Source: Phycisphaerae bacterium
Lineage (GTDB): Bacteria; Planctomycetota; Phycisphaerae; Sedimentisphaerales; SM23-30
NCBI GenBank assembly: GCA_016342495.1
Contig: JAEIOG010000040.1
Location: 1 to 41,129 of the forward strand
Length of the DNA stretch: 41,129 nucleotides
Reading direction: 5' to 3'
The notes under the pieces are model-generated. The model was not told the origin of the DNA. It saw only the letters and a program-made list of their open reading frames with translations, and did not search any database. The stretch's first letter is position 1. The number at the start of each line of letters is the position of its first letter. The position numbers and the translations under genes are program-made. Below, piece by piece: positions 23,561 to 41,129 of this stretch.

Positions 23561-24622
23561 ATGAAAACCAATGAACTAGATTTTTACCTGCCCAATGAAC
23601 TCATAGCACAACAAGGCCTTGACCAGCGTAGCCAGTCCAGACTACTGGTCCTACCACGCCTGGAAGGCCAGATTCAACATAAAAAATTCTTCAATATCAA
23701 ACAATATCTAATGCCAGGAGACTGCCTGGTCCTTAACCAGACAAAGGTTATCCCCGCTAGATTCTATGTTCAAAGAGCTACCGGAGGCAAGATAGAAGGG
23801 CTTTTTCTTGAAATAAATCCCGATGGTCTGTGGAGAACCCTGCTAAAAGGCGCTTCCAGACTCAAAATCGGGGAAACCATCGAAATTATAAATACCTTAG
23901 CTGATCAGCAACCTCCAAAACCTGCCCAGCTAAAAGTCATTGAAAAACTGGATCAGGGCCAATGGCTATTGCAAAATCTATCAGATCAGCCCCATTTGCA
24001 AATTCTCGCCGAAAATGGCGTTACCCCCCTGCCACCCTATATCCATCGCAATTACACCTCTCAGAGTGAAAACCACGACCGTAATCGATACCAGACCATC
24101 TATGCCCAAAGTCCCGGCTCGGTCGCTGCACCTACCGCTGGCCTGCATTTCACCGACGAACTTCTATCTGATCTGCAAGCCAATGACATAAAAATCGCAA
24201 AAGTCACCCTCCACGTTGGCATGGGAACCTTCAAACCCGTCTCCGTTGATAATCTCATAGACCACGAAATCCACAGCGAACAATACGACGTAGACCAGAC
24301 CAATGCCGACATCATCAATAGCACAATAGATTCTGGTGGCCGCATCATCGCCGTTGGCACCACATCTGTCCGCACATTAGAATCCGTCGCAGCCGATGGC
24401 CATATCCAACCCGCCTCTGGCAGCACCAAACTCTTTATTATGCCCGGCTATCAATACAAAGTCGTCGATGGCATCATAACAAATTTCCATCTGCCCAAAT
24501 CAACCCTGTTGGCCTTGATCTGCGCCTTCTCAACCAAAGAACGCGTCATGGACGCCTATAAAATAGCCGTCGGGGAAAAGTACCGTTTCTACAGCTATGG
24601 CGATTCCATGCTGATTATTTAG
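23561..24622 (+). CDS. queA: S-adenosylmethionine:tRNA ribosyltransferase-isomerase
   Basis: Queuosine pathway enzyme that transfers and isomerises the ribosyl group of SAM onto preQ1 in tRNA. 353 aa. Motifs are ELDFYLPNELIAQ at the start, LVLNQTKVIPARF, LPPYIHR, RYQTIYAQSPGSVAAPTAGL, HVGMGTFKPV and FITNFHLPKSTLLALICAF-like residues near the end. Start ATG 23561 is chosen because relatives begin here; an ATG at 23534 adds nine residues, and neither has a good Shine-Dalgarno sequence. The last 8 bases overlap the converging DUF2007 gene. No other queuosine gene is in the window. Confidence 0.96.
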   Translation: MKTNELDFYLPNELIAQQGLDQRSQSRLLVLPRLEGQIQHKKFFNIKQYLMPGDCLVLNQTKVIPARFYVQRATGGKIEGLFLEINPDGLWRTLLKGASRLKIGETIEIINTLADQQPPKPAQLKVIEKLDQGQWLLQNLSDQPHLQILAENGVTPLPPYIHRNYTSQSENHDRNRYQTIYAQSPGSVAAPTAGLHFTDELLSDLQANDIKIAKVTLHVGMGTFKPVSVDNLIDHEIHSEQYDVDQTNADIINSTIDSGGRIIAVGTTSVRTLESVAADGHIQPASGSTKLFIMPGYQYKVVDGIITNFHLPKSTLLALICAFSTKERVMDAYKIAVGEKYRFYSYGDSMLII

Positions 24623-25094
24623 CGAAACTCAACGGTTGCTTTTGCCACCACTGATACATGCAATTGCGACATTGATAACATTTTCTTTTATCAACAAAAC
24701 CTAAAAACCAGAACATCCCCAAAGTTATCACTATCAAAACTATTTGAGCTATTGGTATATAATTATAACCGGTATTAACTTCAACCACATTATCGCACTT
24801 GCATTTTGGGCATTTCAAATCAAGCTTATCAGCCTGCTCTCTGGCTAATTCTCTGGTCTGTTCAAACTCTTGCATTAATTCCAATGCCTGCTGCTGGTCA
24901 GATTCCCTTACCTGAACCTTTGCCCCGCTGATAAAAGAGCCTATCGAGCCATAGGCCCCGGCCATATTCTCATCTGCAATAAAAGCCGCCACCCCTTGAG
25001 CTTCAAGCATATTGCACAACATATGCGCATTCACTGGCTCATTAAAGTTGGCAATCGTAACCAGTTTTGTTATTTCATTTTCATCAGTACTCAT
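24615..25094 (-). CDS. DUF2007 protein with zinc ribbon and membrane segment
   Basis: 159 aa in three parts. Residues ~8-80 match the DUF2007 pattern (LVTIANFNEPVNAHMLCNML, AAFIADENMAG, KVQVRESDQQQALELM). A split zinc ribbon (CPKC at ~98 and CYQCRNC at ~143) surrounds a hydrophobic segment (IAQIVLIVITLGMFWFLGFV). The function is unknown. The ATG follows the stop of the GLUG gene by one base (TAG-A-ATG), and its AAGGA ribosome binding site lies inside that gene, so both are probably on one mRNA. Confidence 0.75.
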   Translation of the reverse strand: MSTDENEITKLVTIANFNEPVNAHMLCNMLEAQGVAAFIADENMAGAYGSIGSFISGAKVQVRESDQQQALELMQEFEQTRELAREQADKLDLKCPKCKCDNVVEVNTGYNYIPIAQIVLIVITLGMFWFLGFVDKRKCYQCRNCMYQWWQKQPLSFAK

Positions 25095-25095
25095 T

Positions 25096-27159
25096 CTATT
25101 TTCCTTCCAGCCAATGACCTGCCAAATTAATCAAATCACCCATATCATAACCATCGCTATCCAGCCACCCAATAGCCAACTCGGCCAAATCCTCCAGATC
25201 AACTCCATCTCCCCCAGCCATATCACCAGCAATATCAACCTGATACCACAACCGCGGATAACTCACCTTACCCGAATGCATCCGCCAAATATCTTCTTCC
25301 CCATTTTCAGTCTCACCAACGAAATCCCAACCAACCCCAATTAATACCGCCGAATCCTGCAGCTGCCCAGTCCCAACACCAATACCACCCGCTGAAACCG
25401 ATAAACCACTAGTCTCAACATCCCAACCCGAACCCATAACACCGCCGTTATTAGAACCCACCAGTCCCCCAACTTTTTCAGTGCCAATGACAGTGCCGAT
25501 AGAATAGCAATTGTATATCCCCGCTTCGTTTAATCCTACCAGTCCTCCTGCCGTATGAGTAACTGCTGATACCGAGCTGAAGGCATAGCTATCATATATA
25601 CTGCCACCATTATTGCCACCAACTAAACCACCTATACCCCAGTTGCCTGCTACTTGGCCAGTTGCATAGCAATTACTAATGCTGCCAGCATTAAAAGCTG
25701 CAACAGCGCCAACACCAGCTTTGCCAGTTATATTTGCATTAACAATACCAAGATTTCTAACTACGTAAGGCCAGCCATGGACACAGCCGAATAAACCCAC
25801 ATAATTGGTGTCTGGCCGATTAATTGTAAGCCCTTTTATTGTATGTCCCCAACCCTCAAAACTACCGGTAAACATATTGATATAATCGCCAATAGGCTTA
25901 AAACCTTCCAGAATAGTATCATCAGTCCCTTCATCATTCCAATAGGCAGTCTCTCTGGCATCAATATCACACATAAGGGCATAGGTGCCATCTAAAGGGT
26001 ATGAAGGGTCATTACCAATTTTAGCCAGTGTAGCCAGAGTATCGATCCCAATAGCTGGGGCAAATTTTGCAACAAACTCACTACTCGTCCCTACATAAAC
26101 AAAAGTCTGAGGATTTTCCTTAAAATCATGCCATTCGATAAATACACAAGGGACATCTCCTGATATCGCCCTTAAACTAATAAGGGTTCCGGGAGCATAG
26201 CGGCCATTATCAGATTCAGGAGAGATGATCACCTGACCTGGCCCATCAACTGTTACTGTTAGTTTATAAGTTGGCACCATATCCTTAATGTATGGATAAC
26301 TCCTGTTTTCCAGAATTTCCCAGGTATTTTCAAAATCCCAGTTTGGATAATTAGTCTGCTGTAGCATTTGCCCAATATATCTACCTGCACCACCAGCAGA
26401 ATTATTTTTACCACTCAAATAAACATCCCAGTAACAATCAATTACTGTTGCCGAAGAAGATTGGCTGCCGATAAATCCACCACCATTGCCTATGACCTTT
26501 GTTGTGGAATAACTCGTTGCAATAGAAGCATTATTTATTCCAACAAATCCTGCTGCACCATAGTTTGTTGCTTTGGCTGTTCCGGTAGCAAAAGTATTGC
26601 TGATAAACCCATAATTTTCCCCTACCAAACCGGCAGGATAAATTGCCGCACCCACAAAACCATCTGCATAACAATGACTAACAACTCCACCGTTAATTCC
26701 AACGACACTACCAGCACAATAATTTCCTGTTATGGCTGTATCAACCAGCCCCAGATTTTTAACTATGCCATCGGTGCCAATACAGCTAAACAAACCGACA
26801 TAATCTCTATCAGGACGATGAATATTAAGACCGGTTATAATATGATTCTGCCCATCGAAAATCCCATTAAAAGGGTTAATGGCACTTTCGGTATATACGC
26901 CAATAGGTTCAAACCCTTCCAATATTTCTTCATCGCTTTCTTCATCGTTCCAGTTCGCGGTTTGCCAAGCATCAATATTAGCAGTAAGGATATAATGTTC
27001 ATCCAGCGGATAATTCGGGTCATTGCCGATTTTAGCCAGTGACTCTAATGAATCAATCTCAATAGTAATCCAGAAATCAGCTAAAATTGTCTTGTCACTA
27101 TCCATTATTACTGTAGCGACAAGGCCATCGGCCAAATGAACACCCTGCCAACCTTTCAT
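25096..27159 (-). CDS. GLUG-repeat protein, C-terminal part of a gene split by duplication
   Basis: 687-codon frame that is the 3' part of one large gene. It begins inside the duplicated segment (MKGWQGVHLADG) without a signal peptide. It carries two GLUG clusters (NPFNGIFDGQNHIITGL, then GSFEGWGHTIKGLTI), with many GGLVG/CYATG-type repeats and a divergent InlB B-repeat-like domain between them (YKLTVTVDGPGQVIISPES ... FVAKF). It ends in a dockerin-like tail (GGDGVDLEDLAELAIGWLDS, then MGDLINLAGHWLEG), typical of Phycisphaerae exported proteins. The true gene is restored by deleting one 458-bp copy. As it stands this part is probably not exported, and its internal Met has only a weak ribosome binding site. 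Confidence 0.75.
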   Translation of the reverse strand: MKGWQGVHLADGLVATVIMDSDKTILADFWITIEIDSLESLAKIGNDPNYPLDEHYILTANIDAWQTANWNDEESDEEILEGFEPIGVYTESAINPFNGIFDGQNHIITGLNIHRPDRDYVGLFSCIGTDGIVKNLGLVDTAITGNYCAGSVVGINGGVVSHCYADGFVGAAIYPAGLVGENYGFISNTFATGTAKATNYGAAGFVGINNASIATSYSTTKVIGNGGGFIGSQSSSATVIDCYWDVYLSGKNNSAGGAGRYIGQMLQQTNYPNWDFENTWEILENRSYPYIKDMVPTYKLTVTVDGPGQVIISPESDNGRYAPGTLISLRAISGDVPCVFIEWHDFKENPQTFVYVGTSSEFVAKFAPAIGIDTLATLAKIGNDPSYPLDGTYALMCDIDARETAYWNDEGTDDTILEGFKPIGDYINMFTGSFEGWGHTIKGLTINRPDTNYVGLFGCVHGWPYVVRNLGIVNANITGKAGVGAVAAFNAGSISNCYATGQVAGNWGIGGLVGGNNGGSIYDSYAFSSVSAVTHTAGGLVGLNEAGIYNCYSIGTVIGTEKVGGLVGSNNGGVMGSGWDVETSGLSVSAGGIGVGTGQLQDSAVLIGVGWDFVGETENGEEDIWRMHSGKVSYPRLWYQVDIAGDMAGGDGVDLEDLAELAIGWLDSDGYDMGDLINLAGHWLEGK

Positions 27160-27362
27160 ACCAAAAGTTCCAGTGTCATCAGCGGTTAAAGTAATAACTG
27201 TTCCAGGAACATAACAGCCATTAACCGGTGCGGGTTCAAATAAAACCGACCCTGAGCCTTTGACCTCAATATCCAGCTTAAATTTGGGCTGCGAAGCTAT
27301 GAAATATGGATAGCTAAATCCATCATTGATAGCCCAGATATTTTCAAAGTCCCAGTCAGCAT
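26903..27362. repeat. 458-bp perfect tandem duplication, copy 1
   Basis: Bases 26903-27362 match 27361-27820 at every position compared. The repeat period is 458 bp, and the copies share the two bases AT at the junction (27361-27362), a 2-bp microhomology. Just outside, the sequences differ at once (C against A at one end, A against C at the other). Confidence 0.95.
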
Positions 27363-29642
27363 AGGTTCAAACCCTTCCAATATTTCTTCATCGCTTTCTT
27401 CATCGTTCCAGTTCGCGGTTTGCCAAGCATCAATATTAGCAGTAAGGATATAATGTTCATCCAGCGGATAATTCGGGTCATTGCCGATTTTAGCCAGTGA
27501 CTCTAATGAATCAATCTCAATAGTAATCCAGAAATCAGCTAAAATTGTCTTGTCACTATCCATTATTACTGTAGCGACAAGGCCATCGGCCAAATGAACA
27601 CCCTGCCAACCTTTCATACCAAAAGTTCCAGTGTCATCAGCGGTTAAAGTAATAACTGTTCCAGGAACATAACAGCCATTAACCGGTGCGGGTTCAAATA
27701 AAACCGACCCTGAGCCTTTGACCTCAATATCCAGCTTAAATTTGGGCTGCGAAGCTATGAAATATGGATAGCTAAATCCATCATTGATAGCCCAGATATT
27801 TTCAAAGTCCCAGTCAGCATCGGTAAATGTTGCCTTCTGATGCATCTGTTCAGTGGTTTTGTCGATACCTCCATCAGAATCATCACATTGACTGGTTTGA
27901 CTGTCCCAAAATCCGGCTGCTGATTGGGAACTACTGTTTGTTGCGATTAGACCACCAGCATAATTTTCCGCAATAATTCTTGCTGTGCTATAGTTGTGTT
28001 CTATGATGGCACAATAATTGATAGAACCCAACAGCCCACCCACAACATAAGTACCTGTTATTTTGCCTGTAACAAAACAATTATTCACTCTATTAACCGT
28101 ATCAATATTGCAGGTAGATTCGTAAATATATCCGACCATACCAGCTACAATATTGCCACCCGTAATATTGGCATTTATCAGGCCCAGCTTTTTGACTTCA
28201 GCACCGTTGCCAATACTACCAAACAAAGCGACACAATTGTCTTGTGGGGCATTGATGGTCAAATTATGAATAATATGGCCATCGCCATCGAAAGAACCAG
28301 TAAATTTTTCACCTTCAAATTCATAATCTTCATAAAAACCCGGTGCAATCAATGCCTTGTCAAAATCATAATCGCCCATATCTATATCAGAAGTCATAAT
28401 AAAGCACTTATCATAATCTTTAACACTATAGCCCAAATCAATCATATCTCTGGCTGTAGATATTTGATAAGGATCTGCAGAGCTACCAACACCGCCCGAA
28501 TAAGTAATATTACGCAATTGCGGATAATCGCCATCTGGCAGGAGCCATATATTTTTTATACCATTATCCGTCTCGCCAACAAAATCCCAACCCGCATCAG
28601 TAAAGGTTGAAAGAGTTTGCATCTCGGCGGTGGTTTTGCCATAGCTAATACTCCCTGCGATATTACCCACACCCTGAGCAACACCACCAGTTTGAATGTC
28701 CCAAAAACAAGCAGTAAGTGTTGGGTTATCACCATAAGGAAAAGAACTAAGGGCACCAACCATGCCCCCAACAGAATTATCACCACTAATATCACCGGTT
28801 GTATAACATTTTTCGAAATGCCCGCCATTGACACCAGCCAAACCGCCAACATGCTGACTACCATTAACAGATGCTTTCGCATAACAGTTTCTTATAGTAG
28901 AATACAAATTTCTACCAACTATTCCGCCTGCAAAAGATTCTTGAGCATTAACAACGCCATTAGTAAAACTGCTGACAATATAACTCCTATTATCTCCTAC
29001 CAGCCCGCCAACATAATTAATCCCGCTTACATTAACATCGGCACGACAAGTATTAATAGTGGCAATTGTGCCTGGGCCTTCAGAAATATAGGTAAGAGCA
29101 AAACTGCTGCCAGCCAAACCTCCGACATAAGTATCTCCCTCAATATGGCCAGAAACAGAGATAGATTCTATTTGGCTGTAGTACAAAATACCAACTAACC
29201 CGCCAGTTTCCTTACTGCCGTGTATATCGACATTTTTCAAATTTAAATGACTCACCTGTGCTTCATAAAGCATACCAAATAATCCTACACAATCATTGCC
29301 AGAGCCATCAATGGTTAAGTTGCTAATTGTATGATTATTGCCATTAAAACTTCCAGTAAATTTTGACCCTTGCAACCCAGATTCCGTCGAATCATCCGGT
29401 GCGATAACCGCTTGTGTGAATTCATAACACGCCAGATCAATATCCGCTGTCATTATGAAACAGCTATTATAATCTTCAGTGGTGTTTCCCAATCTTATCA
29501 AATCTTCTGCGGTAGCTATCTGGTAAGGGTCTGCCTCGGTGCCTGTGCCGCCGGAATATTGTCCCAGACAGGTAGCTCCTGATATAATAAAAATTGTCCA
29601 GATTAATAATATAAACTTGATACACTTGTTGAAGAACTTCAT
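27297..29642 (-). CDS. GLUG-repeat protein, N-terminal part of a gene split by duplication
   Basis: 781-codon frame with a signal peptide (CIKFILLIWTIFIISGATC). Two blocks begin GGTGTEADPYQIATAEDL and GGVGSSADPYQISTARDM, each followed by GLUG modules (GSFNGNNHTISNLTI, YVGGLAG, GGLVGDN, CYAKASV). Near the end is a divergent InlB B-repeat-like domain (FKLDIEVKGSGSVLFEPAP ... KTILADF). GLUG repeats form beta-solenoid-like surface or secreted domains; adhesion or polysaccharide contact is plausible but unproven. The last 20 or so residues (after ILEGFEP) are out-of-frame sequence created by the duplication. Deleting one copy joins this frame to the C-terminal part: 4547 minus 458 is 4089 bp, 1362 codons plus stop. 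Confidence 0.8.
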   Translation of the reverse strand: MKFFNKCIKFILLIWTIFIISGATCLGQYSGGTGTEADPYQIATAEDLIRLGNTTEDYNSCFIMTADIDLACYEFTQAVIAPDDSTESGLQGSKFTGSFNGNNHTISNLTIDGSGNDCVGLFGMLYEAQVSHLNLKNVDIHGSKETGGLVGILYYSQIESISVSGHIEGDTYVGGLAGSSFALTYISEGPGTIATINTCRADVNVSGINYVGGLVGDNRSYIVSSFTNGVVNAQESFAGGIVGRNLYSTIRNCYAKASVNGSQHVGGLAGVNGGHFEKCYTTGDISGDNSVGGMVGALSSFPYGDNPTLTACFWDIQTGGVAQGVGNIAGSISYGKTTAEMQTLSTFTDAGWDFVGETDNGIKNIWLLPDGDYPQLRNITYSGGVGSSADPYQISTARDMIDLGYSVKDYDKCFIMTSDIDMGDYDFDKALIAPGFYEDYEFEGEKFTGSFDGDGHIIHNLTINAPQDNCVALFGSIGNGAEVKKLGLINANITGGNIVAGMVGYIYESTCNIDTVNRVNNCFVTGKITGTYVVGGLLGSINYCAIIEHNYSTARIIAENYAGGLIATNSSSQSAAGFWDSQTSQCDDSDGGIDKTTEQMHQKATFTDADWDFENIWAINDGFSYPYFIASQPKFKLDIEVKGSGSVLFEPAPVNGCYVPGTVITLTADDTGTFGMKGWQGVHLADGLVATVIMDSDKTILADFWITIEIDSLESLAKIGNDPNYPLDEHYILTANIDAWQTANWNDEESDEEILEGFEPMLTGTLKISGLSMMDLAIHIS
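27361..27820. repeat. 458-bp perfect tandem duplication, copy 2
   Basis: Second copy, directly adjacent and in the same orientation. Since 458 is 3 x 152 + 2, the duplication shifts the reading frame of the GLUG gene and creates an early stop (27297-27299) for the N-terminal part. Confidence 0.95.
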
Positions 29643-34151: not shown

Positions 34152-34352
34152 TCCTGAGACTTATCAACAGGACTCTGGGGCTTATTTCCAGAGCTATGGG
34201 AGGCATTGCCATAACACTGGGGGGCTTCTACTGAGCTATGGGAGTCATTGCCATAACGCCGGGAGGCATCTACAGGGCTATGGGAGTCGTTCCCATAACG
34301 CCGGGAGTCATCCCCAGAGCTATGGGGATCATTGCCATAACTATGGAAACTG
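34152..34352. repeat. 21-bp-period tandem repeat of imperfect palindromes
   Basis: About nine and a half units of exactly 21 bp. Alternate units (starting 34194, 34236, 34278, 34320) read close to TATGGGAGTCATTGCCATA, giving a stronger 42-bp period. Each is an imperfect inverted repeat, with TATGG pairing CCATA; the unit at 34278 is a perfect TATGGGA/TCCCATA hairpin. The first units (CTCTGG...CCAGAG at 34173) keep the hairpin but not the sequence, suggesting compensatory change. There are no unique spacers, so it is not a CRISPR array. Confidence 0.85.
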
Positions 34353-34567: not shown

Positions 34568-35518
34568 ATGAAAACTAAATTATTATGTATGTTGTTATTA
34601 CTGGGCTTTTGCAGTCCGCTGCTGGCGACTGTACCATTAAATGAAATCCCGCAGGATACCAAATGGATAGCCCATATCGATATTGGAGCGATTGGCAATA
34701 CTGAAATGTATCGAATTTGCCAGAATGATGCAAAATATGCTGATTTCCTCCGGGCCATGGACAAAATCAATGATAAAACCGGTCTGAATCTGCCTGAAGA
34801 TCTTCAGTCAATCACCATTTTTGGTGATAATTTCCAGGAAGAACGCGGCATGATCATTGCCCGGGGCTTTTTCGATGTCGACAAAATCGGTGATGCCGTC
34901 ATGGATAAAGTTGCATGGACCGAATCATATTATGGTCGCCACACCATTTATAATTGCACCGAACAGGCCAAATACAAGGCATTTCTGGTATGCTATATCT
35001 CTCAGGAATATATGCTGGTCACCAAGCAAAAGGATTTAATGGAGAAAACCCTGGATGTAATTGACCGTAAAAGAAATGCCAAAAATGCGACAAATTCGGA
35101 AATTGCTAATAACCTGGCAAATCTTCCAGCTGGCACCATTTTCACTGCTGCCGTTACCGAAATGCCAAAAGGCAAAAGTCGACCTCAAGGCCAGCCAAAC
35201 ATGATGCAAAATGTCAATAAAATGACAGTTGTAGCTGGTGAAAGCAATGGCAAAGTATTTATGAAAATGGAAGCGATATGCAATACTGCAGAAAATGCAG
35301 CTAATATGGCACAAATGGGCAATGGCATATTAGCAATGGCTAAGATGTACGCCCCACTGCCAGAAGCACAGGATTTATTAAATGCCATGACAATTACCGC
35401 CGATGGCGACAGACTAATCTGTAATTTTAGTTTTGATTCTGATAAGTTTATTGCTAATATGAAAGTTGTAGGCGAAAAAGCCAGACAAATGAAATCGGCA
35501 GGCCGTGCCAGAAGGTAA
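34568..35518 (+). CDS. Exported protein of unknown function
   Basis: 316 aa with a signal peptide (TKLLCMLLLLGFCSPLLATV). The mature part starts NEIPQDTKWIAHIDIGAIGN and contains a region alternating strands and helices (ITIFGDNFQEERGMIIARG, KAFLVCYISQEYMLVTKQ). The overall look is of planctomycete exported proteins that begin with 'AHID' or 'VDID' motifs, but I cannot name a family. AGGAG lies 6 bases before the ATG. It is followed by a terminator and then the sigma / anti-sigma pair; whether it is their target is unknown. Confidence 0.7.
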   Translation: MKTKLLCMLLLLGFCSPLLATVPLNEIPQDTKWIAHIDIGAIGNTEMYRICQNDAKYADFLRAMDKINDKTGLNLPEDLQSITIFGDNFQEERGMIIARGFFDVDKIGDAVMDKVAWTESYYGRHTIYNCTEQAKYKAFLVCYISQEYMLVTKQKDLMEKTLDVIDRKRNAKNATNSEIANNLANLPAGTIFTAAVTEMPKGKSRPQGQPNMMQNVNKMTVVAGESNGKVFMKMEAICNTAENAANMAQMGNGILAMAKMYAPLPEAQDLLNAMTITADGDRLICNFSFDSDKFIANMKVVGEKARQMKSAGRARR

Positions 35519-41043: not shown

Positions 41044-41096
41044 TTTCACCTTTAATATTACTCCGGCAATTAAATAGATGAAAGTTTTGTATTTTT

Positions 41097-41129
41097 ATGC
41101 TATAATGTTGCGATGGAAACACGAGATGC
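41097..41129 (+). promoter_or_regulatory. Extended -10 box and start of a gene leaving the window
   Basis: TGC-TATAAT (extended -10; TATAAT at 41101-41106) ends 6 bases before an ATG at 41113 that stays open (METRD...) to the window end. If real, the gene is leaderless. Only five full codons are visible. Confidence 0.35.

Follow-up and report, generated by a model that had tools for sequence, protein, structure and literature searches.

Duplications within bacterial open reading frames

Bacterial populations commonly harbour spontaneous duplications (PMC3411829). The duplications confirmed in that study have at least 11 bp of homology at their junctions, and long junction homology was used there to separate true events from chimeric reads. 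In pneumococci of the serotypes 3, 8 and 37 the capsule genes cap3A, cap8E/wchA and tts undergo spontaneous tandem duplications (Waite et al. 2001, 2003, as cited in PMC4022640 and PMC4243769). According to these citing papers, a head-to-tail duplication within the open reading frame inactivates a cell-surface function, which is restored by the precise loss of one copy. For Pseudomonas tolaasii a spontaneous intragenic duplication of 661 bp in a sensor-regulator gene is cited as the cause of phenotypic switching (Han et al. 1997, as cited in PMC11661271). Deletion between direct repeats of 438 bp occurs in Deinococcus at equal frequency with and without RecA (PMC4627823).

Here we describe a tandem duplication of 458 bp in a GLUG-repeat gene of a Phycisphaerae bacterium (GenBank assembly GCA_016342495.1). 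The window, i.e. the whole stretch of DNA that was analysed, comprises 41,129 nucleotides and is one complete contig (JAEIOG010000040.1). The duplication resembles those of the pneumococcal capsule genes in that it lies head to tail within an open reading frame, interrupts the gene of a putative surface protein and could revert if one copy were precisely lost. With the element of P. tolaasii it shares the similar size and the intragenic position. However, loss and regain of the pneumococcal duplications were observed in culture, as cited, and the switching of P. tolaasii was shown in a cultured organism and concerns a regulatory gene, whereas the present locus is a single allele known from assembled sequence alone.

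The tandem duplication and its breakpoints

A base-by-base comparison at an offset of 458 revealed an exact direct repeat of 460 bp, the two copies of which overlap by two bases (Table 1). The position, the period and the shared junction AT had been given correctly in the initial annotation, and TRF reports the same array with a period of 458 bp and 2.0 copies. No other exact repeat of at least 40 bp was found in the window by this comparison. The sampled third of the genome contains no further match to the duplicated unit; the only similar stretch, which is 68% identical, is located within the same GLUG gene.

Table 1. Features of the interrupted GLUG-repeat gene. Positions refer to the window.
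Feature	Position	Strand	Remarks
GLUG-repeat secreted/surface protein gene (putative), interrupted	25096..29642	-	4547 bp in the assembly; 4089 bp (1362 codons) after removal of one unit
N-terminal open frame, 781 aa	27297..29642	-	signal-like hydrophobic N-terminus; GLUG repeats; terminated within the second copy by a frame-shift stop
C-terminal open frame, 687 aa from the first ATG	25096..27159	-	GLUG repeats; without recognisable ribosome-binding site or signal-like N-terminus
First copy in gene direction	27361..27820	-	read in frame
Second copy in gene direction, identical	26903..27362	-	out of frame from the N-terminal side
2-bp junction AT, common to both copies	27361..27362

In the one-copy sequence the two breakpoints have nothing but AT in common. 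Two or more shared bases are found at 17% of random breakpoint pairs in the GLUG gene (P=0.17), and in register the sequences around the breakpoints show average identity. A perfect repeat of 460 bp is far beyond chance; a junction homology of 2 bp is not. Beyond this microhomology no pre-existing repeat or homology, as it would characterise an evolved hypermutable tract, was found at the breakpoints, and therefore nothing that would make the event recur at the same place.

The interrupted gene

Since 458 is not a multiple of three, the duplication results in a null or truncated allele. The initial annotation had described an upstream frame which stops early, a C-terminal part in a separate frame without signal peptide, and an uninterrupted gene after removal of one copy. 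The open reading frames and the translation bear out all three points. The downstream frame is open over 756 codons from stop to stop, and the one-copy gene has a single, terminal stop. Sequences with one to six copies of the unit were constructed in silico, of which only the one-copy form is open. In the forms with two to six copies translation ends at codon 781, since it enters the frame with this stop at the first junction. The idea that a higher copy number restores the frame was therefore rejected; this holds for four copies too, although the length is then a multiple of three. The locus accordingly has the architecture of reversible-duplication phase variation, i.e. a perfect duplication within the open reading frame, a length not divisible by three and an intact one-copy frame.

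Both halves of the gene share with the GLUG-motif repeat proteins (PF07581) matches above the curated Pfam cut-off of 20.5 (30.3 bits for P0001 and 44.9 bits for P0002). The duplicated unit encodes a region that matches the divergent InlB B-repeat domain (PF18998) weakly and below threshold; the following GLUG block also starts within the unit. Judged from the sequence, the N-terminus resembles a signal peptide, and from the family we infer a secreted or surface, adhesin-like function. A dockerin-like tail, as proposed in the initial annotation, could not be substantiated. No Pfam match was obtained for the C-terminal 140 aa (E<=1) or the last 53 aa (E<=10), which leaves a resemblance by eye.

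GLUG paralogs in the same genome

The genome encodes many GLUG genes, which form a large family here and in related genomes. The closest paralog at both ends of the gene is located on contig C64. It is intact (1099 aa), and the DNA of its tail is 86% identical. The differences between the two genes at the codon positions 1, 2 and 3 number 32, 33 and 66 in the tail and 24, 22 and 44 at the N-terminus. This excess at the third position indicates that both ends of the interrupted gene were under coding constraint until recently.

Two pairs of other GLUG genes contain long identical tracts. L039 11685-12543 (contig C90) and L040 14891-15749 (contig C139) are identical over 859 bp, with flanks of about 75-94% identity, and L044 7429-8655 (contig C69) and L046 17409-18635 (contig C13) have a perfect tract of 1227 bp between flanks of about 75-87% identity. 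These tracts look like recent gene conversion between paralogs or like collapsed assembly bubbles.

Tandem arrays in related genomes

The genus is represented by one genome only, which is the present one. For the neighbouring ORF 24615-25094 only weak partial matches were found, in two genomes of the family. A CheD-like neighbour is found in other genera, and the short stretches around these matches hold no clear GLUG array. By this neighbour-based comparison no counterpart of the locus could be recognised in other genera of the family. In the scanned contigs of named genomes only distant GLUG proteins were found, and none in plasmids.

We also scanned three closed genomes of the same order for tandem arrays, covering 400 kb around their GLUG genes. 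Many arrays lie within open frames there; wherever the unit measures at least 60 bp, the period is a multiple of three, and almost all of these arrays have diverged. This suggests that GLUG genes expand by amplification in frame and that out-of-frame events are not retained. In contrast to these arrays the present one is perfect and out of frame, and it looks like an event that is normally purged.

An array without an open frame through it was observed in one of the closed genomes (L184 3178-3930, genome G020). It consists of 2.2 copies of a 338-bp unit with 93% identity and is located about 0.3 kb from a GLUG array.

Assembly context

The draft genome comprises 221 contigs and is 95% complete. 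Many of the 107 contig ends compared have a common terminal sequence, which measures at most 77 bp except in two contigs with uniform (masked) ends. Shared ends of this length point to a short-read de Bruijn assembly with k=77. The ends of the window contig, positions 1-76 and about 41055-41129, are common to the ends of C64 and C35 and of C21 and C23, respectively, over 74-76 bp, which is consistent with a k=77 graph that breaks at repeats.

In a de Bruijn graph the k-mers of a junction must come from reads, and the end-to-end joining of overlapping contigs is not a normal operation. In a k=77 graph a tandem repeat of 460 bp forms a loop. Its closing edge depends on reads that carry the junction, and its number of turns is inferred by the assembler. 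It is therefore unlikely that overlapping contigs were simply joined end to end, and the junction is probably real in the cells. The copy number of the repeat is an inference of the assembler, since the repeat exceeds both k and the length of a short read. A fixed two-copy population, a higher-copy population and a mixture of one and two copies would look alike in such a graph.

The survey of repeats and tandem arrays began with 1.34 Mb of the genome and was later extended to 1.73 Mb of 5.42 Mb. Within this sample no second perfect tandem duplication with a length of at least 300 bp was found, which indicates that false duplications are not scattered through the assembly. Apart from the 458-bp duplication, a single near-perfect array with a unit of at least 100 bp came up in the survey, L065 13029-13569 (contig C11).

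The latter comprises 2.9 copies of a 188-bp unit with 99% identity and no open frame through the array, and is another young array. A longer and more diverged one, L202 14635-18799 (contig C171), has 2.4 copies of a 1767-bp unit (92% identical) in frame inside an open frame of 2367 codons. Within the window 3.6 copies of a 42-bp unit are located at 34189-34341, upstream of an ORF at 34568; arrays of 42/63-bp units recur on other contigs of the genome.

Possible origins of the duplication

The locus probably carries a single, very recent spontaneous tandem duplication, which would have left a null or truncated allele of a GLUG surface-protein gene. The copies would have been joined at the 2-bp microhomology by illegitimate joining or template switching, and the insertion would break the frame. 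The frequency at which two shared bases occur by chance and the average identity in register speak for a spontaneous event with random breakpoints. If real, the duplication should be recent, given the perfect identity of the copies and the absence of other stops; the 1362 codons that remain after removal of one unit contain no internal stop, so that no further decay has accumulated. An intact frame after removal of one copy would likewise be left if the genome contained one copy only and the assembler had added the second, for example by following a false loop that a chimeric junction had created, or through faulty repeat resolution or gap closing. We regard such an artefact as possible, although less likely than a real duplication. 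The fragmented, 95% complete draft, its k=77-like contig termini and a copy number that had to be inferred for a repeat longer than k are in keeping with it, and the perfect 859- and 1227-bp tracts, which could partly be collapsed bubbles, suggest that the GLUG family is hard for the assembler. As the confirmed events of PMC3411829 have junction homologies of at least 11 bp, a 2-bp junction does not give such support to the present duplication. Against the artefact stand the absence of Ns and of any comparable tandem duplication in the sampled third of the genome. In addition, judged from the workings of the assembler, an overlap of 2 bp is too short for a k=77 join without a read that carries the junction.

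Recombination, whether dependent on RecA or not, could collapse a perfect direct repeat of 460 bp and restore the intact gene, so reversion to one copy is plausible. It is unlikely, however, that the duplication regularly arises and collapses in the population and thereby switches the surface protein on and off. The architecture does match the known silencing duplications of the pneumococcal capsule types 3, 8 and 37 and of P. tolaasii, direct repeats of similar length are deleted independently of RecA in Deinococcus, and a population of mixed alleles would give the same short-read graph. But there is no pre-existing repeat to bring the duplication back to the same place, the gene would be ON in the one-copy state only, the second allele is absent from the assembly, and the arrays with units of at least 60 bp in open frames of the scanned GLUG regions of the closed relatives all keep the frame. 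The collapsibility is a generic property of tandem duplications and probably not an evolved device; beyond it there is no positive evidence for an on/off switch. We consider it quite improbable that the source population holds both alleles, which arise and collapse at high frequency and switch the protein, in a GLUG family that also exchanges segments by gene conversion. A functional split or frameshifted protein, made by a programmed -1 frameshift or from an independent start at 27159, is hardly credible. Past the junction the two open frames do overlap for a short distance (27297 to about 27366). Yet the only heptamer of the X XXY YYZ type in the vicinity, GGGTTTG at 27374, lies immediately in front of the junction, the ATG at 27159 is neither preceded by a Shine-Dalgarno-like sequence nor followed by a signal-like N-terminus, and the single-copy frame is perfect.

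Of the three readings offered in the initial annotation, the very recent event is thus the best supported and ranks as the most likely, in the form of a null-making duplication. The assembly artefact comes next and is a live rival in view of the k=77-like contigs. A maintained switch, which draws on generic collapsibility, is unlikely.

Implications

The locus calls for caution: when a tandem repeat in a draft genome is perfect and breaks a frame, the simplest explanations are a fresh mutation and an error of assembly. As it stands, the duplication in this uncultured bacterium is most likely a recent mutation of the ordinary kind, or it may be an assembly error. If both alleles were seen in reads, it would be an example of phase variation driven by duplication, affecting a GLUG surface protein of an uncultured bacterium from the environment.
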